Positions 4,586 through 16,700 of a stretch of DNA of 64,000 bases are shown piece after piece. Within the stretch, counting starts at the first letter, position 1; each line of letters starts with the position of its first letter. Origin of the DNA: Blattamonas nauphoetae (taxonomy: Eukaryota > Preaxostyla > Oxymonadida). The notes under the pieces are model-generated. The model was not told the DNA's origin. It searched no databases and was given only the letters and a program-made list of their open reading frames with translations. The stretch is taken from assembly GCA_033064195.1 (NCBI GenBank), contig JARBJD010000011.1:558001-622000 (forward strand), written 5' to 3'. The translations under genes were made by a program, and so were the position numbers.

Positions 4586-6362
4586 ATGGAGCCAGTCTTC
4601 GACCCTCCGGCGGTATCTCCGGGGACGCTATTGTCAATCGCTCAAAATGTGATTCCTGATGACACTAGCGTTCAGACCATTGTATATGGTACTTTCTTTT
4701 TTCAAAAGACCATCTTCAGGAACAACGAATAATTCGTCAGAGGAGGGCACGATGACATTCCTTCAATGCTCTTCTGAAGCCAATTCAATCGCTGGCATCA
4801 AATCGCGCCTTCAAGCAAGTAGATTTGGCGGAAAATTGATTTGCATCCAGAATGTTCTCTTCGACTATCCTGTCTCAATGCTCTGTCAAACAGTTGAGCC
4901 ATTCATTGAACATATCGAATGGATGAGAATCGTACGGTTTGTTTCTTTTGGATTTCAGAATGTCAGAGAGAAAAACACGACAACACACTATATGGTCCTT
5001 TTGAACTTTGATCATGAAGTAGATTCAGAGGCATTTTTTACTCAGTTCAACGGAGTTTCACTGAGTTTTCTGTACAACATCACTTGCACTATCTCCTTCG
5101 TTCTATTTACGACATGTTCTTTCTTCTCGATCCCAATCACACCATTCTACTTCTCTCCTGTCCCTTCTCCGAATCCGTCGTCTTTCATCCAACCCCAACG
5201 AACGGAACTGACACCACCGATCGATCAAACTCCAAATCCACTAACATGTTCAGTTTGTCTGGAATCTCTCCATCCAACGACATCCCACATCCTCTATTTG
5301 CTCTGTGGTCATACATTTCACATCACATGCTTTGCTCAATGGTCGAAAGGGACATGCCCACTTTGTCGATACACTCTCCTCCCACGGACACAAACATCAA
5401 GTTGTTCACAGTGTGAGACAAGAGAAAATCTGTGGGTGTGTCTTTCTTGCGGATTTGTGGGCTGCGGAGCGTCTAAATTACACCACGCTGAGCAGCATTT
5501 TGTTCAAAGTGGACATCCATACGCGATGGATCTCGAAACCGAGAAAGTTTGGGATTACGTAGATGAACAGTCTGATATTAGCCATCTTTCATGTTCTTTC
5601 CCTCTTTTTCAGATATGTACATCGAATGATCGAGACAGAGAGTGATGGGAAGATTGTCTGCCTTTCAAAGAACGGGGCCCCCACATCCGACCCACAATCA
5701 CCGACACATCGAACAATGGAATTGGAGGAAGAGTTCTTCCGGCGTATCGAGAAGGAAAATGGACGGATTGTTGTTGACCAACTTGAAAGACAACGATGTG
5801 AATTGGAGGAACGCCTACAGCGGCGAAGAAAGGAGTTTGAAGAGATCGCGAGACAGGAAAAAAGAAAAGTCAACAATCTTCTGAATCGGAGTCGCGGAGC
5901 TGACAATGAGCTGGTTTGTCTCCTCTTCTATCTTTGCATGTCCTCTGTTTTCCATTCACCATCATTTAGACCTCTCTTCAACTAAGATTGGCAGAATTGA
6001 AATCTCGGACATCTCCAAAATCATCAGTCTCTCGACAGCAAATTGATCCACTCGTCACGAAACGAAATATCCTCCTCGCAACAAAGAGCTCTGTTGATGC
6101 TGTTTGAATTCAACCTTCTCATCCTTCGCAGCAAATCAAAGATAATCAAGCACAGATCTCGGCCATAACGAAGGAGAATGCTGCTCTGACAAGTTCACTT
6201 TCAGTGAAAGAGAAAGCTCATCAAGAATCGATTGGAGAGATGGAATTAACGATTCAGGACCTCATCAGCAACATCAATCTCATTCAAAGCATTCAGACAG
6301 GAAAGGACAAACAAAAAATCACTGTTGCCGCAGCACAAAGAGGAAAAAGAAGAAAAAGATGA
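4586..6362 (+). CDS. BRAP2-like RING/UBP-finger E3 ubiquitin ligase
   Basis: Homologue of BRAP2/IMP, a cytoplasmic RING E3 that in animals modulates Ras-MAPK signalling and nuclear import. In order: an RRM-like BRAP2 domain (HYMVLLNFDHEVDSEAFF is typical); a RING (CSVC, CGHTFHITC, CPLC); a UBP-type zinc finger (CSQCETRENLWVCLSCGF, GCG, then HH..H), ending in the family's VWDYV; and a Glu/Lys-rich coiled coil to the C-terminus (RGKRRKR, stop TGA). Introns are inferred at 4689-4719 (31 bp) and near 5571 (43 bp, restoring QYVHRMI), 5912 (56 bp) and 6106 (30 bp). A 27-bp in-frame intron near 4952 is possible. The spliced length is divisible by three, about 529-538 residues. The segment just before the RING diverges from relatives. 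Confidence 0.9.
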
Positions 6363-6388
6363 CCTCTGAAGAGAACGTGAGATTTACC

Positions 6389-6733
6389 TCATTTGTTCGT
6401 CCATATTTTGGCAAGAAGGCAACACCTCACATTTGAAGCGATGATTGCATGTCGAACACTTTCATCACCAGCTTCCTGAAGAACATTCAATTGTCCAACA
6501 ATTTTAGTTGGTGCAGAAAACATGTGTATGATCAGGAAAAGCTCCCCTCGACTCAGGTGCATCTCTTTGTTTTGCTTCAAAGTCATTTTTTCGTTGTCTC
6601 GCATTTGGACTGATCCATTTTGTATTATCGGCAATGTTTGCGCTGGTTCATTTGCAATCACATGTTTCATCTGAGTGTAAAACCACATTTTATGAACCCT
6701 GGAATACTCATTTCCCTCGACACTTTGGATCAT
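6389..6733 (-). CDS. Small hypothetical ORF (114 aa)
   Basis: A minus-strand ATG-initiated ORF fills the gap between BRAP2 and the Hsp110 gene, with its start 25 bp from the Hsp110 start. The composition is protein-like (helical, no low complexity), but no domain, signal peptide or family was recognised. It could be real, an exon of something larger, or chance. Transcript evidence would decide. Confidence 0.3.
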   Translation of the reverse strand: MIQSVEGNEYSRVHKMWFYTQMKHVIANEPAQTLPIIQNGSVQMRDNEKMTLKQNKEMHLSRGELFLIIHMFSAPTKIVGQLNVLQEAGDESVRHAIIASNVRCCLLAKIWTNK

Positions 6734-6758
6734 CCCACAGAAAACTACATACTAATCA

Positions 6759-9700
6759 ATGCTAACTCCACGACCAAGTTCTCTTTCATCTTCTTCATCA
6801 ATCTTTCGTTACTTACATTTCTATCAGCCTTTGGAATTGACCTCGGTACTCATCATGCAATTGTTACAGCTCCTCTCCGCACATTTTTCCCTGAACAGGA
6901 CATTGACCCACAGCACAGAGAGTTCATCACATGTGCTCTCAACGAAGATCATACACGATTAACTCCTGTTCGAATTCTTTTGGAAAATCAGGATCGAACA
7001 ATTGGACTAGCTTCACAGAGAAATGCAGCTGTACAGAACTTCAAAAGCAATTTCGGATATTTTGATCAGGAATATGAACTTTCGGACAAAGTTCTTGAGA
7101 GTCATCTCTCTTTGAATCAACCACAGTACACTGTGGGATATGGTCAAGGCAATTCTCCAACCACATTCACGAACGAACAGATTACAGGTCTGCATTCTTC
7201 ACTATTAAGGTATCAATTTTGTTTGAAGGGATGTACCTCCGAAAACTTATTCAAAATTGTCGGAATCCTGGTGATCTACCTTCAGATCTTCCGACCCTGA
7301 CAACGTCTGCTTTACTCTACTGTGATCTTGTTTAGGGATCCCAATGTCCAGATTGGAAACTCCAGAGCTTCAATTGTTGTTTCAGTTCCCACATATTGGA
7401 AACAATGCCACAAACAGTCGTTGCTTAGCGCAGCACAGATTGCATCACTGTCAATCCTCTCTCTTGTTCAAGACACGACCGCAGGTTTGAATTCCCATTT
7501 TAGACATTCATCTTCTTTGTAGCTGCCGTCTGTTATGTTTCAACTCGTCTCCCATCCAATGCTGGAATTCGCGACCCATTTTACCTTCTCATTGCCGATT
7601 TCGGGTCCCAAAGTCTTCAAACATCACTTTTCCGCGTTGTTCGCACCTTCCACGGTGTCTCAATTTCTGCTCTCAGTCACACCTGGACACTTGAAGCATC
7701 TGGCGACAAAATCACGCAGACCATTGCGCAGCACATCGCCGACAGTCTCCTGAAGTCTCACCCCGCTCATGCCGATGTGATCAACAACGATGCCAAGTTC
7801 GCCAACCGCCTGCTCTCAGCCAGTGAAAAGCTCAAAATTGCCCTGTCAGCCTCGCCGATCGCCGAACAGACGATCGAGATTCTCCCAGGGGAAGTGGAGA
7901 CGTCATTTGTGATGAAACGGGAGACGATTGTTGAGCTGATTGCCCCGTTCAACACATTCATCAAATCCACAGTGGACAGATGCATCGCCGAAGGAATCCA
8001 ACGCATCCAAACGTCATATCCAGACGACATCAAAGACAAAGAGCACCCGACCGTCACCATCCACTCGGCAGAACTCGCTGGAGCCGGAAGCAGAATCCCA
8101 TCCTTCCAGTCTGCCCTCGAGCTCAGCCTCCAACAGAATCCTCTCGTCACTCAGCCAATCACTCTTTCCCGCACCCTCAACTCCGACGAGGCGGTTGCTT
8201 GGGGCTGTGGGCGTCTCGCGTCGCAGCTGGAGATGGACCGCTGCATCGACCATGCGAAGAAGGCCAATTCCCATCTCCCTCTTCCCTCGGCGGTCAAGGC
8301 TGCCAACGCTGAGCTTCAGAACGAGATCCCCAAAACTGTCCGTGTTGATGTGAAAGATATTTTGACGCACGACATTGTTCTGTACGAGACAGAACAGTTG
8401 ATCACGTCCGATGCCAGCGAGCCTGATGGACAGAAACTCGATACCATCCAAGTCATTTCCAAAACAACCGGCTTTCCATCGCCCTTTGTTCTCCCAGAGA
8501 ACCCCACCCAAACACTCGTTGCCTTTCAGAAAGGTACTGAATACCCATCCAAGCACACCGCACGGTTTGATATGCGAGGACGATCAAAACCACTCGTGTC
8601 GCAAGATCCCAAATCAAAGCTTCAAGTTCTCATCGACGCACGATACGTTCCAAAAGACGCTGAAACCGACCAGTGTCAGCCACCTCGAACAATACAAGGC
8701 AAGCATTACGCCATCCCGACCAGTCTTGTTTCGACAATGCTCCTTTGTGATCCATCGTCCGACATGACCGGAATTGTTGTCGAGCTCGACAAAAACGGGC
8801 AGTTCAGTCTCCACTCTCCTTTCTACCTCGAACACATCAACACTGAGCAGTCGTCCATCCAGCGCCAGCCACGCTCGATCCTTCTCTTCTCGTCAAAGAC
8901 ACCCAAAAAACAGATCCAAACCTTCTCTGACGAGGAGCAGAGAATGATGCGACAAGACGAACAGACGAAAGCCAGCGAGATTGCCAGGAATGATCTTGAA
9001 AGCTACTGCTATTCTCTGCTCAATGATTGTTCAGATAACATGGACGGGTGCATGACGGAAGCAGCGTGCAATGAGTTCAAGACCAAAGTCAATTCCATCC
9101 TCGACAAAATCAACGACGAGTCCTTCCGTCAGCCCCCTCTCATCTACAACCAGCACATGAAGGAGCTGAAAGACTGGATTGAGCCCGTGCTGGAGCGGAA
9201 GAAGGAGAAGGAGCGGATCAAAGAGGAAAGCCTCAAGCTCAACGAAGCCGTCCAGAACGGACAAAAAGTCAAGTCCCGTTTTGCGGCTCTGAAGCAGTTT
9301 TTTCCGGAAGAAGTGAGCGGCTTCGAAACCATTCTGGAGAGTGCACTGAAGCTTCAGAAAGAAGTTAAAGAGAAGATCGAAGACCCCACGTCGATCAGAG
9401 AAGAGGACACGTCGAGTGATAGCGACTCTGGCGACAATGAGCACGAGTCTCTTCTGTCTGCCTCGGCCAGCACAACTGCTGCCTCTCTCCAGAAAGCGAT
9501 TGAAATCATCAACAACCTCCACAAGGAACGTTCCAAGAGACTGAAAGAGGAGGAGCAGGCAGAGCTCCTTCGCCAGAAGAAGGAGAAGGAGGCACAACTC
9601 AAAGCGCAACGCGAACAAGCACAGCGTCGAGCTCGCCAAAACCCATTTTCATGGATGGACCCATTCGGCCAATACTACCGCGGACAGGAAGACGAGGACG

Positions 9701-10397
9701 ATCCCTACGCTCAGGCGCGCGAAGAGGAGGAGCGGAAACAGCAGGAGCAGAGGCAAGCTGCTCTGAAGGCTCGACAGGAGCAACTCAGAAAGGCACAAGA
9801 AGAGCGACAGAAACAACTTGAGGAGCAGAGGAGGCAGATGGAAGAGCAAAGGAAGAAGGAACTTGAAGAACTTCAGGCCAAACGGCAAGAAGAACAAGAA
9901 AGACTGAGACAGCGACTTGAACAGGAAAGGTCACAAAAACAAGCGTCGAACGCCGAGTCTTCCCCAATCGACCCACGAACAGATTATCTTCTCCCCAAAA
10001 TGGATATGCAGGTCTGTCTCTGTCCCCATCACTTTTTTCGTGCAGGAGTATGTTGATGCGTATGTCTACCATGTCGAACTGTCAGGCGCCCCGAAAGAAG
10101 ACATCCAGCTTTCGTTGGATGGTGAGGACCTGATTGTCACTGCCCCACGCAAGCGATATGTTCAATCTAATGTTTGCCACTTGTTGATCTCATTCTCGTC
10201 AGGACCCATTCTTCGGCTTCTTCGGAGCGGGGTACATGCCACGCGAGGAGGTGACTGGAGTCTACAAACGCATCGTCACTCTTCCATCGGACGCTGATTC
10301 CTCGTCAATCAGTGCTGACTTCCGCAACGGCATTCTTATCATCACCATTCCTCGACTCAACGTTCGTCGTCCGTCTCGGCGCATTAATATTTTTTAG
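6759..10397 (+). CDS. Hsp110-type chaperone fused to C-terminal Hsp20 domain
   Basis: Predicted 1,133-residue chaperone. Residues 1-~390 are an Hsp70/Hsp110 ATPase domain: FGIDLGTHHAIV (phosphate 1), SIVVSVPTYW, QDTTAAAVCYV, a degenerate phosphate-2 loop (IADFGSQSLQ) and LNSDEAVAWG. A substrate-binding-like region, an acidic linker and a long Glu/Gln/Arg coiled coil (about 925-1010) follow. Residues ~1020-1133 are an alpha-crystallin domain: YVDAYVYHVELSGAPKEDIQ, ADFRNGILIITIP, and an I-x-I tail (RRINIF). The join is supported because the open frame from the ATPase domain continues into DYLLPKMDMQ, the first strand of the Hsp20 fold, before an intron inside that fold. There is no signal peptide, so it is probably cytosolic like Sse1/Hsp110. 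Introns: 6778-6827, 7188-7228, 7305-7335, 7485-7522, 10012-10045, 10160-10202. The spliced total is divisible by three. Confidence 0.92.
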
Positions 10398-10523
10398 AAG
10401 CTTCTGTTCTCGTTACAATTCAACCATTCGTTCTACTGTTCTGTTTCTCAGTTTGAGCAAACAGAAATGGCACAACTGTAATTGAGATGAAAAAACAAAG
10501 TTAGAAAAAAACAAGAAGGCTTA

Positions 10524-13500
10524 TCACTCAGTCACAAACACTTTCACCATCACCGTCATCATCTCCTCACCCACCTTAGCCCGTCCCTCGAAATCCAGCA
10601 CAATGGGCGATGAAAGATGATCAGTGACAGGTTTAAGAGCGTCAGTGAGAAGTGCGCTGGTTTCGCCATCAGCAGCTTGAGCATCGAGAATGTCGACTTT
10701 CCCAGCACACGACAGCTTGAGGACAGTGCAATCAAACGAAGATTCGATCATCGCAACTACTTCAGCGACCGTTGGAGTGTGCGTGAACCGTATTTGATGT
10801 CCTTCCCACTCGTCCAGCTGTGAATACGGTGGACGAGACGCACGCTGAGCATACGAGCGATTGAAGCGGTTGCTTGTGAGGTGTACGTTCCACGAGCGGA
10901 AATCGAGCTCTCCCGTCTTCCCCGACATGTACTTCCCCACCTCAATCATCACCAGTCCCTGCGCCATCGCTGTGGTGGTCTCCATGGCTGGGATGAGCTG
11001 TGTCGACAGCTGCTTAATTCGGAGTCGAGACTGCTGAGAGATTTTGTAGTTCTGCGCGCGGAGGTTCGAGAAGAAGAACAGAAAATCGATCTGTCGGTTG
11101 CTGTCGACGTCCTTCTCAAACTCGAGTGGAGTGAAGACGTGTTGAGCAACGGCCGTGAGTGTGGCTTCATCGAGTGTCTTCACAGTGGCAATTGCTTCCT
11201 CGCGCTTTGTGTGTGTGCGTGTTGGGAGAGGAGTGTGGACGAGTTGACGGACTGCAGCAGGGTAATCGGAAGGGACAACAACACCCAACGACGTTGCGCG
11301 GAGGAAGGCTGCACATTCCACAAACGAGACGTGTTCATCGTTGTCGGGTGAGAAGACGAGTGTTTGAGGAACAGTCTTCTTGGCCCAATAATCCTTGTCA
11401 TGTTCGTCCTTGCTGCCGAGTGGGTGGTGGCGCATCAGCTCGTTAATCCTGTTGACAAACATGTCTTCAAACAACCAACGTGCCCACTCCACGCAGTTGT
11501 CAAAGTTCCATGTCTCTCCTCCCTCCATCAATGAGAGGAGTGTTAGCAGTTGATCAGCAAGTGTAACATCAGCCACTTCCGTTGAACAGAGTGTCCGAAT
11601 GGTTGGAACTGGACTGGCTTTGAACGTCTCGAGCAGCAGAACACTGTCCTTGAACAGATTGTCCATCTTATCCTTCGCAAACTGGATGCAGTGCTCAATC
11701 GCCGTTGGGTGTTGCTTTAGCGTGCAGGATGGCACTTCCACATCTGTGTCTGCTCTCTTCGGAGGCGGCTCGTAGCCGTGTGTCACATGCGGAACAACTG
11801 AAGTCACCGACAGGAGCGAAGCCTCCGTCCCACACTCAAACATTGCCTTTCCAAATCGCAGACATTGAGCGTTCACAAACACACGTGCCTCGACGTTGTC
11901 CAGCGCAGCAATGACGAAGTCCTGTGCGGCCCAGAAATCGAAAGAGAAGGCATCGTTCTCGCGCGAGTACCCTTCGTCGCCGCTCTCGTCGGCAACCTTC
12001 TTTGTGTACGCCTTCCCTTTCAGCGACGGGTTCATCCTCACCGCTGCAGCGAGGGCACACTCCGACTTGGGCTTCGACACGTCGGCGTCGGTGAAGAGGA
12101 ATTGGCGGCTCAGGTTGGACAGTTCGATGCTGTCCATGTCAGTCACAGTGAGCATCCCCTTCTCCCCGCAGCACAGTCCCATCAGTGCAATCGCCTTCAG
12201 TGCTTCACATCCGAGAGCCCCTGCCCCGACCAAGAAGCAGTGTACATCCAACAACCGACTCTGCATCGTCTGACCAAACAGCTTGACCTGCCCGTCGTAC
12301 CGTCCCCCCACTCCCACCACGTCTTCCTCCGAGGGATGGGGGCTTGGGATCAGATCGATGTGGTCCAAGCACAGGAATTGGGTGATGGGGAGGCCTGTGC
12401 GAGTGGCGAGTTTGATCACTTCTTGCGATGCGATTGCTCCAGCCACAGACGTGACGCCGCAGAATCGGCTCTGTGCTGTCTTGGAGAAGAGGCGGGCAAC
12501 ATCTTCCTTGAAGTCTTCGTCGGGGGAGCCGGGGAAGGTTCGAGAGAAGACAGCTTTGGTGAGAGGGACGAACCTGGTTGCATCTTCTTCATTGTATGGT
12601 TTTGGGAGTCTGTTCTCTTGTTGACAAAAGGAATCCAAGGCAGAAAAGCAACAATGGATCGTTTTTGTTCGCTGGTCAAAGTCATTGACGTTGAAGAGCA
12701 CAAAATCTGGGTGTTCCATAGCGATTTTGAAAGGGGAGTGTGAAATCTTTCTTTGGATAGGAGTTGTCTTCATTGCGCCACCTGTCAGTACCCCCATTCC
12801 TTTTGTGTCTACATCAATCCACACACTGGCTGGTAGTAGTGCACGTTGTCCGTGTTTGGGTGGCCTGATTTGAAATGGTCCTTTCCCATTCAATTTTGGT
12901 TCTGGTGTGTCACCATTAACATTTTCAAATGTGATAAGATCATCTTCTTGTAGTTTTCCCGCGTAAAGCTTATCAAACCAGACCATTGATATCGTACCAT
13001 TATCAATGTCTTCAATCGGAATAACCACTTCTGGGGCGTTCTTCAAGTCCAGAATTTGGTAGGAGGCTCCTGCATCAACAAATACTCGCATAAACACACC
13101 CACAGCATTCACAACTATCAATTGTTTCTGTAATTCGCGTGTGAGTAGTGAGATAGTCTGAATATCTTGCTCTGATTGATTGACGAGGATGACAGTTGAA
13201 TAATTGCTAATAATTTCCCGCGAAAGTTCCGAATTGTATGATTGGAGTTGGTTTAGTGGGTTTAGGGGCCTGAATCTGTCCAGAGTTGCCTCAGCTCGAG
13301 TTCTGATGGATCCATCGGGCTTGGGAATGATGTCATTCTCTCTGAGATAGAACTGAAGAGAGATATAATGATAAAACGAATACGTGTGTTGAGAAATCGT
13401 CCCAAGTGATGGATGTTGTATCGTGAACCCCAATTCGGTATATCCCCGAGAGAAGTAAGTTTTTCACTGAGAATATTACAGAAAATGAAAAACATACATA

Positions 13501-13676
13501 TTTCTGCTCCAGTTCCATCAAATCCGGATATCAGGACCGACGTTTGAAAAAGGCTGTGGAGACTTCTTTCACTGTGGAAAATGAGAAAATGTGATCAAAA
13601 ACCCAAGAGCATGTAATTGGCGATCGTATCGGTTTTTTGTTTCAATGTCTATCGGTATTGATGGTTCTGTTGACAT
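10524..13676 (-). CDS. UBA1: Ubiquitin-activating enzyme E1
   Basis: E1 enzyme that adenylates ubiquitin with ATP and passes it through a thioester to E2s. It is 1,019 residues, normal for the family. The inactive adenylation half starts with RYDRQLHALG and reads VLISGFDGTGAEI and FYLRENDI. The active half has the nucleotide loop GAGALGCEALKAIALMG and DMDSIELSNLSRQFLF. The catalytic cysteine is in VPSCTLKQHP. The C-terminus matches the E2-binding ubiquitin-fold domain. Three introns in the first 110 codons are each exactly 31 bp (13602-13572, 13497-13467, 13383-13353), and the remaining 2.8 kb is one exon. Its start lies 62 bp from the divergent CSE1 start. A UBA6 or SUMO/NEDD8 E1 is less likely, given the length and cysteine context. 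Confidence 0.96.
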
Positions 13677-13738
13677 AGACCTTGATCGATCCCATGAGAT
13701 TTTTATTAAGCCCTCCAGAATCCATCATCTCAAAAAAT
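13677..13738. promoter_or_regulatory. 62-bp divergent promoter, UBA1/CSE1
   Basis: Only 62 bp separate the two start codons, so both core promoters and 5' leaders must fit here or overlap the coding regions. No TATA-like box was identified. Confidence 0.55.
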
Positions 13739-16700
13739 GGCTCAGAATGATCTTTTTCCCCTTGATACAGTTCTTCAGGCGTCTCTCGCACAGAATGATC
13801 CTGGCCAAATCCGATTTGGTATACCATCATTCACTCTACATTTTTCTCTCAGCTGAAGACCAACTGGCCCTCCATGGACAGACAACTGCTTATCCCGAAC
13901 ATCTATTGGAGATTTTAAAAAATAATCCTTCAGATGATCTTAGAAATTCAGCGGTCATGCAATTGAAAATTCATTTCGACAGACATTGGAGCAAGGTATG
14001 ACAACTTTTTTGATGACATGTTCTCCACAACCATCATGTTTACTCCAGAAAGAATCATGCCATCTTTTCACAGAAGATTCCAGGACTCTGATCAAGAATA
14101 CACTTTTGGAACTCTATTTCTCTGCGACACCATTCCAGCAAAAATTCATCAAAACAATCCTCATTTCTATTGCCAACTTTGACTTTCCACTCTTATGGGA
14201 AGAATGTTTCGATGTTTGTTTCATCCCTAGCTAACATGTCTTTCGTTTGCACAGACTCTCAACAAGGTTGTGGCAGAGTTCTCATTGGATCTCAAAGCTC
14301 GAGCACTCGATCTTCTCCACCACTTTGTCAAAAAGTTGCTTTTCGCTCTTTACTCATCATTCATCTCAGATTCAGATACGCAACTCAAGGAAAACTCACT
14401 CAACGTCGACTTGACATGATCATCAGCAAGATCACTCCAACACTTTATGACACATTCAGAGTTTTTCATTCTTTTTCTTGTATTATTTTCACTCTCACGA
14501 ACAGAGTTGCCTACAAGTCGACATCACCAATGAGACTCCAGAGAACAGAAAACTGTACTTTAGTTGCATCCATTCTGTCCTCCGAATGTTTTACTCTCTT
14601 TGCCATTTTGATATCCCCCAATTCTTCGATGATCATCTTCAAACATGGATGAGCGGTTTCTTGACGATTGTGAGTCTACCTTCTGGAATATCCACTGGCG
14701 AAGTTTGTTATATTTTTATTATCATTGTCCAGGTCGATACATCCACTGTGATCGAAAAAAGCCAAAAAATGATTGTTTACATCATGACTCTCTTTGTCGA
14801 ATCGTACTCTGACGATGTCAAACCATATATCGAAGGATTCATGGATCCATTTCTCCAACTTTTCTCAAAAATAACTCATCACTCATATCATGATAAATTA
14901 CAAGTTGCCACTGTCAGATTCTTGGAGGCAACAGCAAAGAGTGAGTTTCGTGGTCTCTTCACACCGAATGCAATTACTGTGATATACAATCAGCTCATCA
15001 TTCCTAACATTTACATTGCAGGTCTTCATTTTTCTTTATCAATCTTCGTAGCACCAGAAATTGACTCTTTTGTTGCGAAACCCATTCAATTCATCGGATT
15101 TGATTTGGATGGATCTGAGATTCACACCAGACGCATGGCCTGTGCTCAACTGCTTACAGTAATGGGCAACCTCTTCCCAGAACAAGTTAACCCACTCGTG
15201 AAGGGAACACTCAACACAGCCATCCTCGATCAAACCGGCCAAGAAGGCCCAACTACACCGATATCCCCAGATAACTGGATGAAATTGACAACGTTTTCGC
15301 TTCTTCTCACCACATTTGCGAATCAACTCTCCCTTGTCTCTCGTGGTGTTACAAAAACCAATCATGAACCAGAGGTCCATTTCTTCATACAACAGTACAT
15401 TATCCCATATCTCCAATTGGAATTTGTTGATGCTGATACAGATGCTCTTGTTCGTTCTCAATTCATCAAGTTCCTCCAGTTTTTCCGTGAATTTGCATGC
15501 CTTTTATTCTTTCTTCATGATATACAGATTCCACAACAATTTGTCGAAGGACTGTTTACACTTTGCGTTCAACACATTGCTCATCCACAAATTGTTGTTC
15601 ATACCTACGCTGGGATTGCTGTGGATCGTCTGTTATCGGTTCGAAGTGAAACCCAGCAATTGTGTGTTTTTATATCAATTTCACTTCTCCAGAATTTCCC
15701 AACAGACTTTCGACAACTTACTAAGCCAAATATTGGACCAAATTTTCACGAGCATCACAAAGGCCAAAGAAGAATACGACGAAGAAAACGAGTATTTGAT
15801 GAAGATTCTGGCCCATATCATTGACATGGCCAAAGGATCCATCATCAACTTTGTCACCCCAACACTCAACTCACTCAAAAACTTGCTCAATCAAGTGATT
15901 GAAAAGCCAACAAATCCCAATTATTACCACTCGCTCTTTGACGCCATTGCTGCGCTGATTCGTTGTGTCTCTTCCTCCCAAATTGAGGCAGTCAATACAT
16001 TTGCATCAGAACTCCAACCTCAATTCTTAGAGATTCTGAAATTAGATGAAGAAACAGCAAAGCAAAATGGAGAGCCTGCCTTGCACAGGCCGGAGCTCGC
16101 TCAATATGTGATCCAACTTGTTTGCTTGATTACGAATATCAGAGGATCCTTTGACAACGACACGATGGTGCTTATTGAGCGCTTCCTCCAAAAAGAGATG
16201 TGGATGTACAAATCCTTCGTCCCTCCTCTGACCACACTGATAACGACGTGCCTCCGCGCCAACCCTTCCTACTTCTTTCCTCTCTCGGGCGGGTCCGACG
16301 AGAAGCTTCAGTCTTTGATGTACATCGTCTTGAAACTCGTGGGCGAGCCAGCAAACAACAAGTCGGGGCTCCAACTTCTCGATTGCGTCACTGAGGTGCT
16401 CTCTCTTCCACGGGAGCCTCAAATCGACCCGCTTGCAGATCCCAATGACCAATCCCCGTTCACACAACTCATGTCCACCTACTTCCCAGTCATCTGTCGG
16501 CAGGCTCTTTCCACTCTTTACGAGCACATGACGCAACAGCTTGTTGGGAACACCTTGTCTTGGCTGTCGGTTTTGATGTACAGGCGCGGGATAAAGTTCA
16601 TGTGGGAGATGGTGGACACTGGCCTCCCGGCATACCCAGACGGCACTCCTCGCACCATCCACGACTTCCTGAACGAAATTTGGGTGCCGTATGCTTCTGA

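Follow-up and report, generated by a model that had tools for sequence, protein, structure and literature searches.

The DNA considered here, called the window, is a stretch of 64,000 nucleotides from the oxymonad gut flagellate Blattamonas nauphoetae, and all coordinates below are positions within it. The source assembly comprises 88.3 Mb in 837 contigs; the published assembly of this organism was described with 88.5 Mb in 879 contigs (PMC10703272). At 6759-10397 on the forward strand lies a gene, copy A, whose product joins an Hsp110-type protein to a C-terminal alpha-crystallin domain (ACD), the domain of the small heat-shock proteins (small Hsps). It has seven exons and encodes 1,137 amino acids (aa). 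The deposited protein (P0001) matches the seven window exons exactly, letter for letter. In the public database, this product of 1,137 aa is named 'putative Heat shock 70 kDa protein 15' and carries the precomputed domains PF00012 and PF00011. In the main text of the genome paper, the term 'heat shock' is absent, and word-initial 'Hsp' occurs once, for mitochondrial Hsp70 (PMC10703272).

The fused gene and its domains

Pfam and PDB searches were made with a first splice model, which starts at 6692, reads through the intron at 6778-6827 and has 1,154 aa. In this model, hmmscan placed HSP70 at 47-455 (1.4e-29), over the curated cut-off, and HSP20 at 1052-1153 (1.7e-11), well over it. The original prediction, made from the letters of the window, had proposed that one reading frame encodes both an Hsp110-type protein and an Hsp20 domain, and had named a domain search of the product as a check. 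The two Pfam matches bear the proposal out, and the deposited model agrees with it, as it does with the predicted start (6759), end (10397) and junction intron (10012-10045). The junction exon is open as predicted, with its start at 7523 instead of 7777. For the second intron, predicted at 10160-10202, the end is correct and the donor is not (10172-10202 in the deposited model), although the frame stays open with the donor at 10160 too; that choice drops four residues, hence 1,133 instead of 1,137 aa. This intron lies inside the ACD, where the prediction had placed it, and the predicted I-x-I tail is present as INI. All six introns are GT-AG and 31-50 nucleotides (nt) long. The features of the gene are the following, with their basis in brackets.

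6759-6777, 6828-7187, 7229-7304, 7336-7484, 7523-10011, 10046-10171, 10203-10397, (+): exons of copy A (mapping of P0001)
6759..6777, (+): exon 1 with the start codon, encoding MLTPRP (mapping of P0001)
6778..6827, (+): intron 1, T-rich, 50 nt, GT-AG (place and phase equal in the paralog models)
6828..8300, (+): Hsp110-type nucleotide-binding domain (NBD), exons 2-4 and the start of exon 5, end approximate (Pfam HSP70, Sse1 match, profile scores)
8356..8889, (+): diverged region resembling the beta part of the substrate-binding domain (SBD-beta), bounds approximate (AlphaFold2 strands 480-657, partly of low confidence; Sse1 alignment at 642-811 of the 1,154-aa model)
8902..9414, (+): Hsp110-type SBD-alpha helices, including N691 and E694, equivalent to Sse1 N572 and E575 (C-half profile, 35.1 bits; predicted helices)
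9703..9951, (+): linker of copy A, predicted to be a single charged alpha-helix over residues 929-1011 (charge pairing, no heptad; AlphaFold2)
10012..10045, (+): phase-0 intron at the junction, where the ACD begins (place and phase match both paralog models)
10046..10171, (+): exon 6, 126 nt, first half of the ACD (126 nt in all three paralog models)
10172..10202, (+): intron within the ACD, phase 0 (place matches the paralog models)
10203..10397, (+): exon 7, second half of the ACD, tail and stop (Pfam HSP20; leave-one-out profile, 19.3 bits)
10383..10391, (+): I-x-I motif (INI) in the C-terminal tail (direct reading of P0001)

The gene is flanked by a BRAP2-like RING/zf-UBP frame at 4659-5645 (+) and a ubiquitin-activating-enzyme (E1) frame at 10524-13433 (-).

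The closest PDB sequence to copy A is yeast Sse1 (8.9e-19). The alignment reaches the end of the SBD and SBD-alpha; its second stretch is weak when taken alone (14.9 bits). An AlphaFold2 model of P0001 was built with 27 Hsp110/Hsp70 proteins, and the ACD was modelled without related sequences. The mean confidence (pLDDT) is 69.7 and the pTM 0.62, most of the NBD and SBD-alpha are modelled well, and six strands lie between residues 1036 and 1123, in the ACD region. When this model was compared with the PDB by Foldseek, the top five matches were Sse1 chains. In a fold search of viral structures (BFVD), four of the 36 matches at E <=0.001 were named small Hsps (best 1.5e-5), one of them with 30% identity over 90 columns and a root-mean-square deviation of 4.6; Hsp70s were also among the matches. 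Among giant-virus proteins in BFVD, there are fold matches to each half of the protein, as Hsp70 and as separate small Hsps.

Two paralogs and the age of the fusion

A genome-wide search with P0001 led to two relatives, copy B (C434) and copy C (C37), on contigs other than that of the window. Both have the order seen in A, with an open reading frame (ORF) of the family, then short introns, then an ACD-like stretch at the C-terminal end. Their splice models were drawn up manually at GT-AG introns, guided by copy A, and give 1,342 aa for B and 1,094 aa for C, each with one terminal stop. Over its full length, B is 35% identical to A and also to C. The models of the three copies have in common a phase-1 intron immediately 5' of (F/Y)GID, introns of phase 1 after residue 126-129, phase 2 after 151-153 and phase 1 after 201-203, and two phase-0 introns, one immediately before the ACD and one within it. 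The latter two enclose an exon of exactly 126 nt in A, B and C. One extra phase-0 intron is present in the linker of B and of C. Across the three models, 17 of 20 introns contain a stop or shift the frame. Reading through the junction intron shifts the frame in A and B and keeps it in C; reading through the intron within the ACD shifts it in A and C and keeps it in B.

The ACDs of B and C were missed by the genome-wide Pfam HSP20 search, which returned four matches. Those of A and B share 28% identity (E 3e-15, single comparison). Leave-one-out ACD profiles were scored on six-frame segments of at least 20 aa (for A, from window positions 5001-14000), and the correct place was the best match at all three loci, with 19.3 and 15.8 bits for the two exons of A, 68.5 bits for B, and 42.9 and 33.6 bits for C. 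The profile of the B and C ACDs, with A left out, matched six PDB sequences at E <=1, all small Hsps (best 7.2e-5). With A included, there were 28 matches (best 1.8e-9), of which 27 bear names of small heat-shock proteins and one is a 'putative uncharacterized protein ST1653'. An hhalign comparison of the B and C ACDs with the free small Hsps of B. nauphoetae gave a probability of 22.9% (E 0.0009) and was not used as proof. The C-terminal tails differ among the copies (RRINIF in A, VCPIG in B and NEGDE in C).

These matches bear on the possibility that the protein is a specialised assembly or scaffold factor rather than a general chaperone, with an ACD that serves a protein-protein role as in SGT1, NudC and DYX1C1. 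ACD-like domains are common in proteins other than small Hsps (PMC6197667), and the ACDs of B and C are diverged and have no tail. However, the ACD profiles match small Hsps in the PDB, no CS/p23 protein is among the matches listed, and A lies well over the Pfam HSP20 cut-off, so that we regard such a role as improbable.

Since the same layout and matching introns recur in three paralogs, the fusion at the C-terminus very likely arose before the family duplicated and does not stem from the merging of two gene models. A model-merging error, in which neighbouring Hsp110 and small-Hsp genes were joined, had been called unlikely in the original prediction. A short intron located precisely at the junction would suit an error of this kind, but three loci on three contigs have the same order with an open spliced frame across the junction. 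Moreover, the gene models of this genome drew on Augustus, on intron hints from RNA-seq and on PASA (PMC10703272). A merged-gene artefact was rejected on these grounds as hardly credible, and the fused gene is almost certainly real.

Four other places (C716, C222, C668 and C190) were considered as extra fusion genes and rejected, because they hold a C relative that is internally deleted and interrupted by stops. The blocks are about 2.1 kb long, and three of them are at least 99.6% identical to the fourth (C222, L053). This relative has about 78.5% DNA identity to C over 690 columns, and its copies look like a pseudogene fragment dispersed by recent duplication or a mobile element. Between C and the pseudogene-like copy, third codon positions differ at 60/186 and the others at 64/370 over all compared exon parts (p = 9.5e-5); in the ACD alone, the figures are 22/95 and 27/189 (p = 0.07, not significant). 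The introns differ at only 18/128, and the codon test gives weak support. Another C-like gene piece at C43:174500-177500 holds parts of C residues 564-929, with stops.

Relation to Hsp110 and to other chaperones of the genome

The affinity of the family was assessed with reference profiles of ten Hsp110s, eleven Hsp70s and five Grp170s. The NBDs of A, B and C scored 117.7, 117.6 and 92.7 bits against Hsp110, 77.1, 80.0 and 54.3 bits against Hsp70, and 73.3, 82.2 and 56.8 bits against Grp170, in a comparison that may favour Hsp110 and Grp170, whose sets were drawn from the family's own profile search. Against the Hsp110 (SBD-alpha) profile, the C-halves scored 35.1 (A), 32.7 (B) and 30.5 (C) bits, while the maxima elsewhere were 15.3 bits with the Hsp70 profile and 6.4 bits with the Grp170 profile. 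In a tree of 31 rows, A, B and C form one clade (100/100) that falls outside the 11-row Hsp70 clade and has a stem of 2.03 changes per column. In A, the second phosphate loop is DFGSQSLQTS, which resembles DCGHSALQVS of Hsp110, whereas the Hsp70 loops in that alignment read DxGGGT. GID(L/F)G is kept in all three copies. By these sequence comparisons, the NBD of the fused family is nearer to Hsp110 than to Hsp70 or Grp170, and its SBD-alpha is of the Hsp110 type.

Cytosolic Hsp110s (HSPA4/HSPH and yeast Sse1) also give the best sequence and fold matches, and they share with the family the Hsp70-type NBD, the Hsp110-like second phosphate loop and the Hsp110-type SBD-alpha. Unlike them, the fused family has a C-terminal ACD and a diverged SBD-beta, copy A has a long charged helix, and the contact residues for Hsp70 are partly lost in the paralogs. 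Grp170/Lhs1, the relatives of Hsp110 in the endoplasmic reticulum (ER), are likewise divergent Hsp110-like proteins. In contrast to them, the models of A, B and C have no signal peptide (by inspection, with no dedicated program) and no KDEL-like tail. The four Hsp110/Grp170-like loci of the genome have, unlike the fused family, no ACD in their fetched stretches. We infer a cytosolic location for the fused family. An ER/Grp170 assignment of copy A was rejected, since the hydrophobic N-terminus of the model starting at 6692 is intron 1 read through, according to the deposited and paralog models. When translated in one frame, the intron at 6778-6827 resembles a signal peptide just upstream of the Hsp110 start, which makes it a trap for ORF annotation.

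The genome holds at least 21 HSP70 matches in 15 loci, namely six ordinary Hsp70s, two ordinary Hsp110s, four divergent Hsp110/Grp170-like genes and the three members of the fused family. The ordinary Hsp110s (C147 and C67) are each a single open frame, and the ACD profiles reach at most 5.7 bits in their fetched stretches, with no ACD found. For the divergent loci (C1, C283, C68 and C457), where profile scores sometimes fail to separate the groups, the fetched stretches give at most 3.5 bits with the fused-family ACD profile and at most 4.4 bits with that of free small Hsps. An ACD as a general trait of the Hsp110s of this genome is therefore ruled out for the fetched stretches of these six non-fused loci. 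Found in three of nine Hsp110/Grp170-like loci and in none of the six non-fused ones, the ACD marks the fused clade.

Free small Hsps are encoded at C290 (two copies) and C790. The C290 genes form an inverted pair (C290:114977-125696, 78.7 bits each), and an inverted pair of Hsp70 genes lies at C280:52432-56572 (807.9 bits each). The ordinary Hsp110s (L021:797-3514 and L022:897-3749) share an N-terminal stretch, LLKVKRLH...GNQLTVV, that is unseen in the other aligned Hsp110s. C1, C68 and C457 encode large divergent Grp170/Hsp110-like proteins in frames of 1,078-1,421 aa, with the tails EGEYNEL, EANVDL and TENLDEL, respectively; the N-terminus of C68 is hydrophobic.

The same domain order, which the original prediction proposed to seek in related genomes, was found in B and C of the same genome and in no other protein among the matches of capped, word-based protein searches. 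One protein search for both domains returned P0001 itself as its single match among 5802 candidates, and a second returned two matches among 8000 candidates, of which the one other than P0001 has no HSP20 match. A third gave 113 matches among 8000 candidates, none listed with PF00011. The second and third were cut at 8000 candidates and the third misses P0001 itself, so that neither was exhaustive. B and C were not found among the deposited proteins. Among the 58 of 116 matching open-licence papers that were listed, none concerned a fused Hsp110-Hsp20 layout by title or abstract start, in line with the original prediction, which knew of no described protein with such a layout.

Contact residues, linker and possible function

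The capacity of the fused proteins to act on Hsp70 can be judged from residues known in yeast. The Sse1 mutations A280T, N281A, N572Y and E575A impair the interaction with Hsp70, and a mutant carrying all four fails to reactivate aggregated luciferase in vivo (PMC5440654). With N572Y/E575A, 20% of Hsp70 binding and 5% of exchange remain (PMC11479587). At the places of A280, N281, N572 and E575, the residues are A, S, N and E in copy A, H, S, D and E in copy B, and S, E, A and E in copy C. Thus, A keeps three of the four contact residues, the equivalents of A280, N572 and E575. N572 and E575 were placed by the N-x-x-E motif in SBD-alpha, where the index of the PDB chain is 18 lower, an offset that we take to reflect a loop removed from the Sse1 crystal construct. 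The N and E are also kept in the aligned ordinary Hsp70s, and they are therefore compatible with exchange activity without proving it. A, B and C all retain the lysine that aligns with Sse1 K69. With its contact residues and its I-x-I tail, copy A is the most promising candidate for an exchange factor that works on small-Hsp assemblies; B and C may have shifted towards holdase or scaffold functions.

The linker of copy A had been described as a long charged coiled coil, which the analysis does not uphold. Residues 932-1004 are 56% charged and 25% Q. The heptad signal is at chance level (1488 of 2000 shuffles reach the observed value), whereas opposite charges at i,i+4 form 22 pairs against a shuffle mean of 11.1, and none of 2000 shuffles reaches 22. 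AlphaFold2 predicts one helix at 929-1011, with block pLDDT 83-91 over 941-1000. The linker of A thus looks like a single alpha-helix, not a coiled coil. As an alpha-helix rises 0.15 nm per residue, its 83 residues would span about 12 nm. By eye, the linker of B is rich in P and Q and that of C is short; the helical rod, seen in copy A, does not look like a family trait.

The reading that we favour, with a probability of roughly 0.6, is that the fused protein acts as an Hsp110 exchange factor and is held at small-Hsp assemblies by a C-terminal ACD gained before the family duplicated. The ACD would dock the fusion onto assemblies of small Hsps and trapped clients through ACD pairing, and in copy A additionally through the I-x-I tail. 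The Hsp110 part, kept at a distance by the linker of about 12 nm in copy A, would bind Hsp70 and speed nucleotide exchange on site. Client extraction would then begin where the small Hsps had parked the clients. We regard this sequence of docking and exchange as nearly an even call. HSPB1 co-aggregates with clients and eases disaggregation led by HSP70, and small Hsps cooperate with the Hsp70/Hsp110 system in aggregate clearance (PMC8384840); a direct contact between small Hsps and Hsp110 was not found in a limited look at the literature. The original prediction had already suggested that exchange and disaggregation are delivered to complexes of small Hsps and clients. The contact residues and I-x-I tail of A are consistent with this suggestion, which may not hold family-wide, as B and C retain fewer contacts and have no tail.

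Several points weigh against the favoured reading. B and C keep one of the four Hsp70-contact residues, and their models lack the I-x-I tail, which is present only in A. Since two ordinary Hsp110s exist in the genome, exchange activity is not needed from the fused family. Composition corrections to the C-half profile scores are large (21.5 for A, 20.3 for B and 9.8 for C). The family sits on a long branch, for which the program gave a warning, and the tree does not place it firmly among Hsp110 and Grp170. The choice of splice sites in B and C was manual and guided by A, and three of the 20 introns are open, in frame and placed by likeness alone (within the ACD in B, and at the junction and near residue 201 in C). 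The Pfam HSP20 match of B (16.7 bits, 0.0077) is under the cut-off of 20.8 and C is unmatched at E <=5, so two of the three members match at all. Only one of the six PDB matches of the B and C ACD profile is below E 0.01, the second best being at 0.029. No small Hsp is among the best 50 of 1104 PDB fold matches from Foldseek. The ACD blocks of the AlphaFold2 model have pLDDT 37-72 (60-72 in the better blocks, 37-48 in the others), and with the domain modelled as described, the ACD call rests mainly on sequence.

Some of these points would also suit a protein that has lost the exchange role and become a large holdase, ATP-modulated or ATP-independent, with the ACD as a second client surface or a dimerisation module. 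The NBD is strongly diverged (stem 2.03), the Hsp70-contact residues are lost in B and C, and ordinary Hsp110s are present besides. In addition, the C-terminal extension of metazoan Hsp110, with 138 residues and predicted disorder, has holdase activity (PMC8063735). However, A, B and C all retain GID(L/F)G and the lysine matching Sse1 K69, and A retains three of the four contact residues; we consider the loss of exchange unlikely. The metazoan extension resembles the fusion as a C-terminal addition past SBD-alpha and differs from it in being predicted partly disordered, whereas the fusion has a match to a folded domain, the ACD.

The tethered exchange factor can be compared with two further systems. 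As in small Hsps, the ACD comprises about 90 residues, and in copy A it has an I-x-I tail. Unlike in small Hsps, an Hsp110 replaces the usual N-terminal region in copy A, and B and C have no tail. The masses (128.9 kDa for A, 150.2 kDa for B and 121.7 kDa for C) are all outside the small-Hsp monomer range of 12-43 kDa (PMC10417760). BAG3 joins small Hsps, through IPV motifs, to Hsp70, through its BAG domain (PMC6297355). In both BAG3 and the fusion, one co-chaperone connects small Hsps to Hsp70, an analogy for which no homology is proposed. BAG3 is a scaffold with IPV peptides and a BAG domain, whereas the fusion has a small-Hsp domain and Hsp110 in one chain.

Divergent members of a known family can be missed, as the Pfam HSP20 cut-off is passed in only one of three. 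Two protein-rescue factors that are separate in other cells are physically united here in one protein, and the retention of the fusion in three diverged paralogs is evolutionary evidence that both factors act on the same client simultaneously. The fusion also provides a ready-made protein in which the coupling of small Hsp and Hsp110 can be cut by deleting any one of ACD, linker and I-x-I tail, with disaggregation as the readout. Tentatively, an oxymonad lineage may have evolved dedicated chaperones in which a small-Hsp module is covalently coupled to an exchange factor of Hsp70. These would enter mixed assemblies together with free small Hsps and initiate disaggregation by Hsp70 there, possibly in three specialised versions, as a one-chain counterpart of the bridge between BAG3 and small Hsps.

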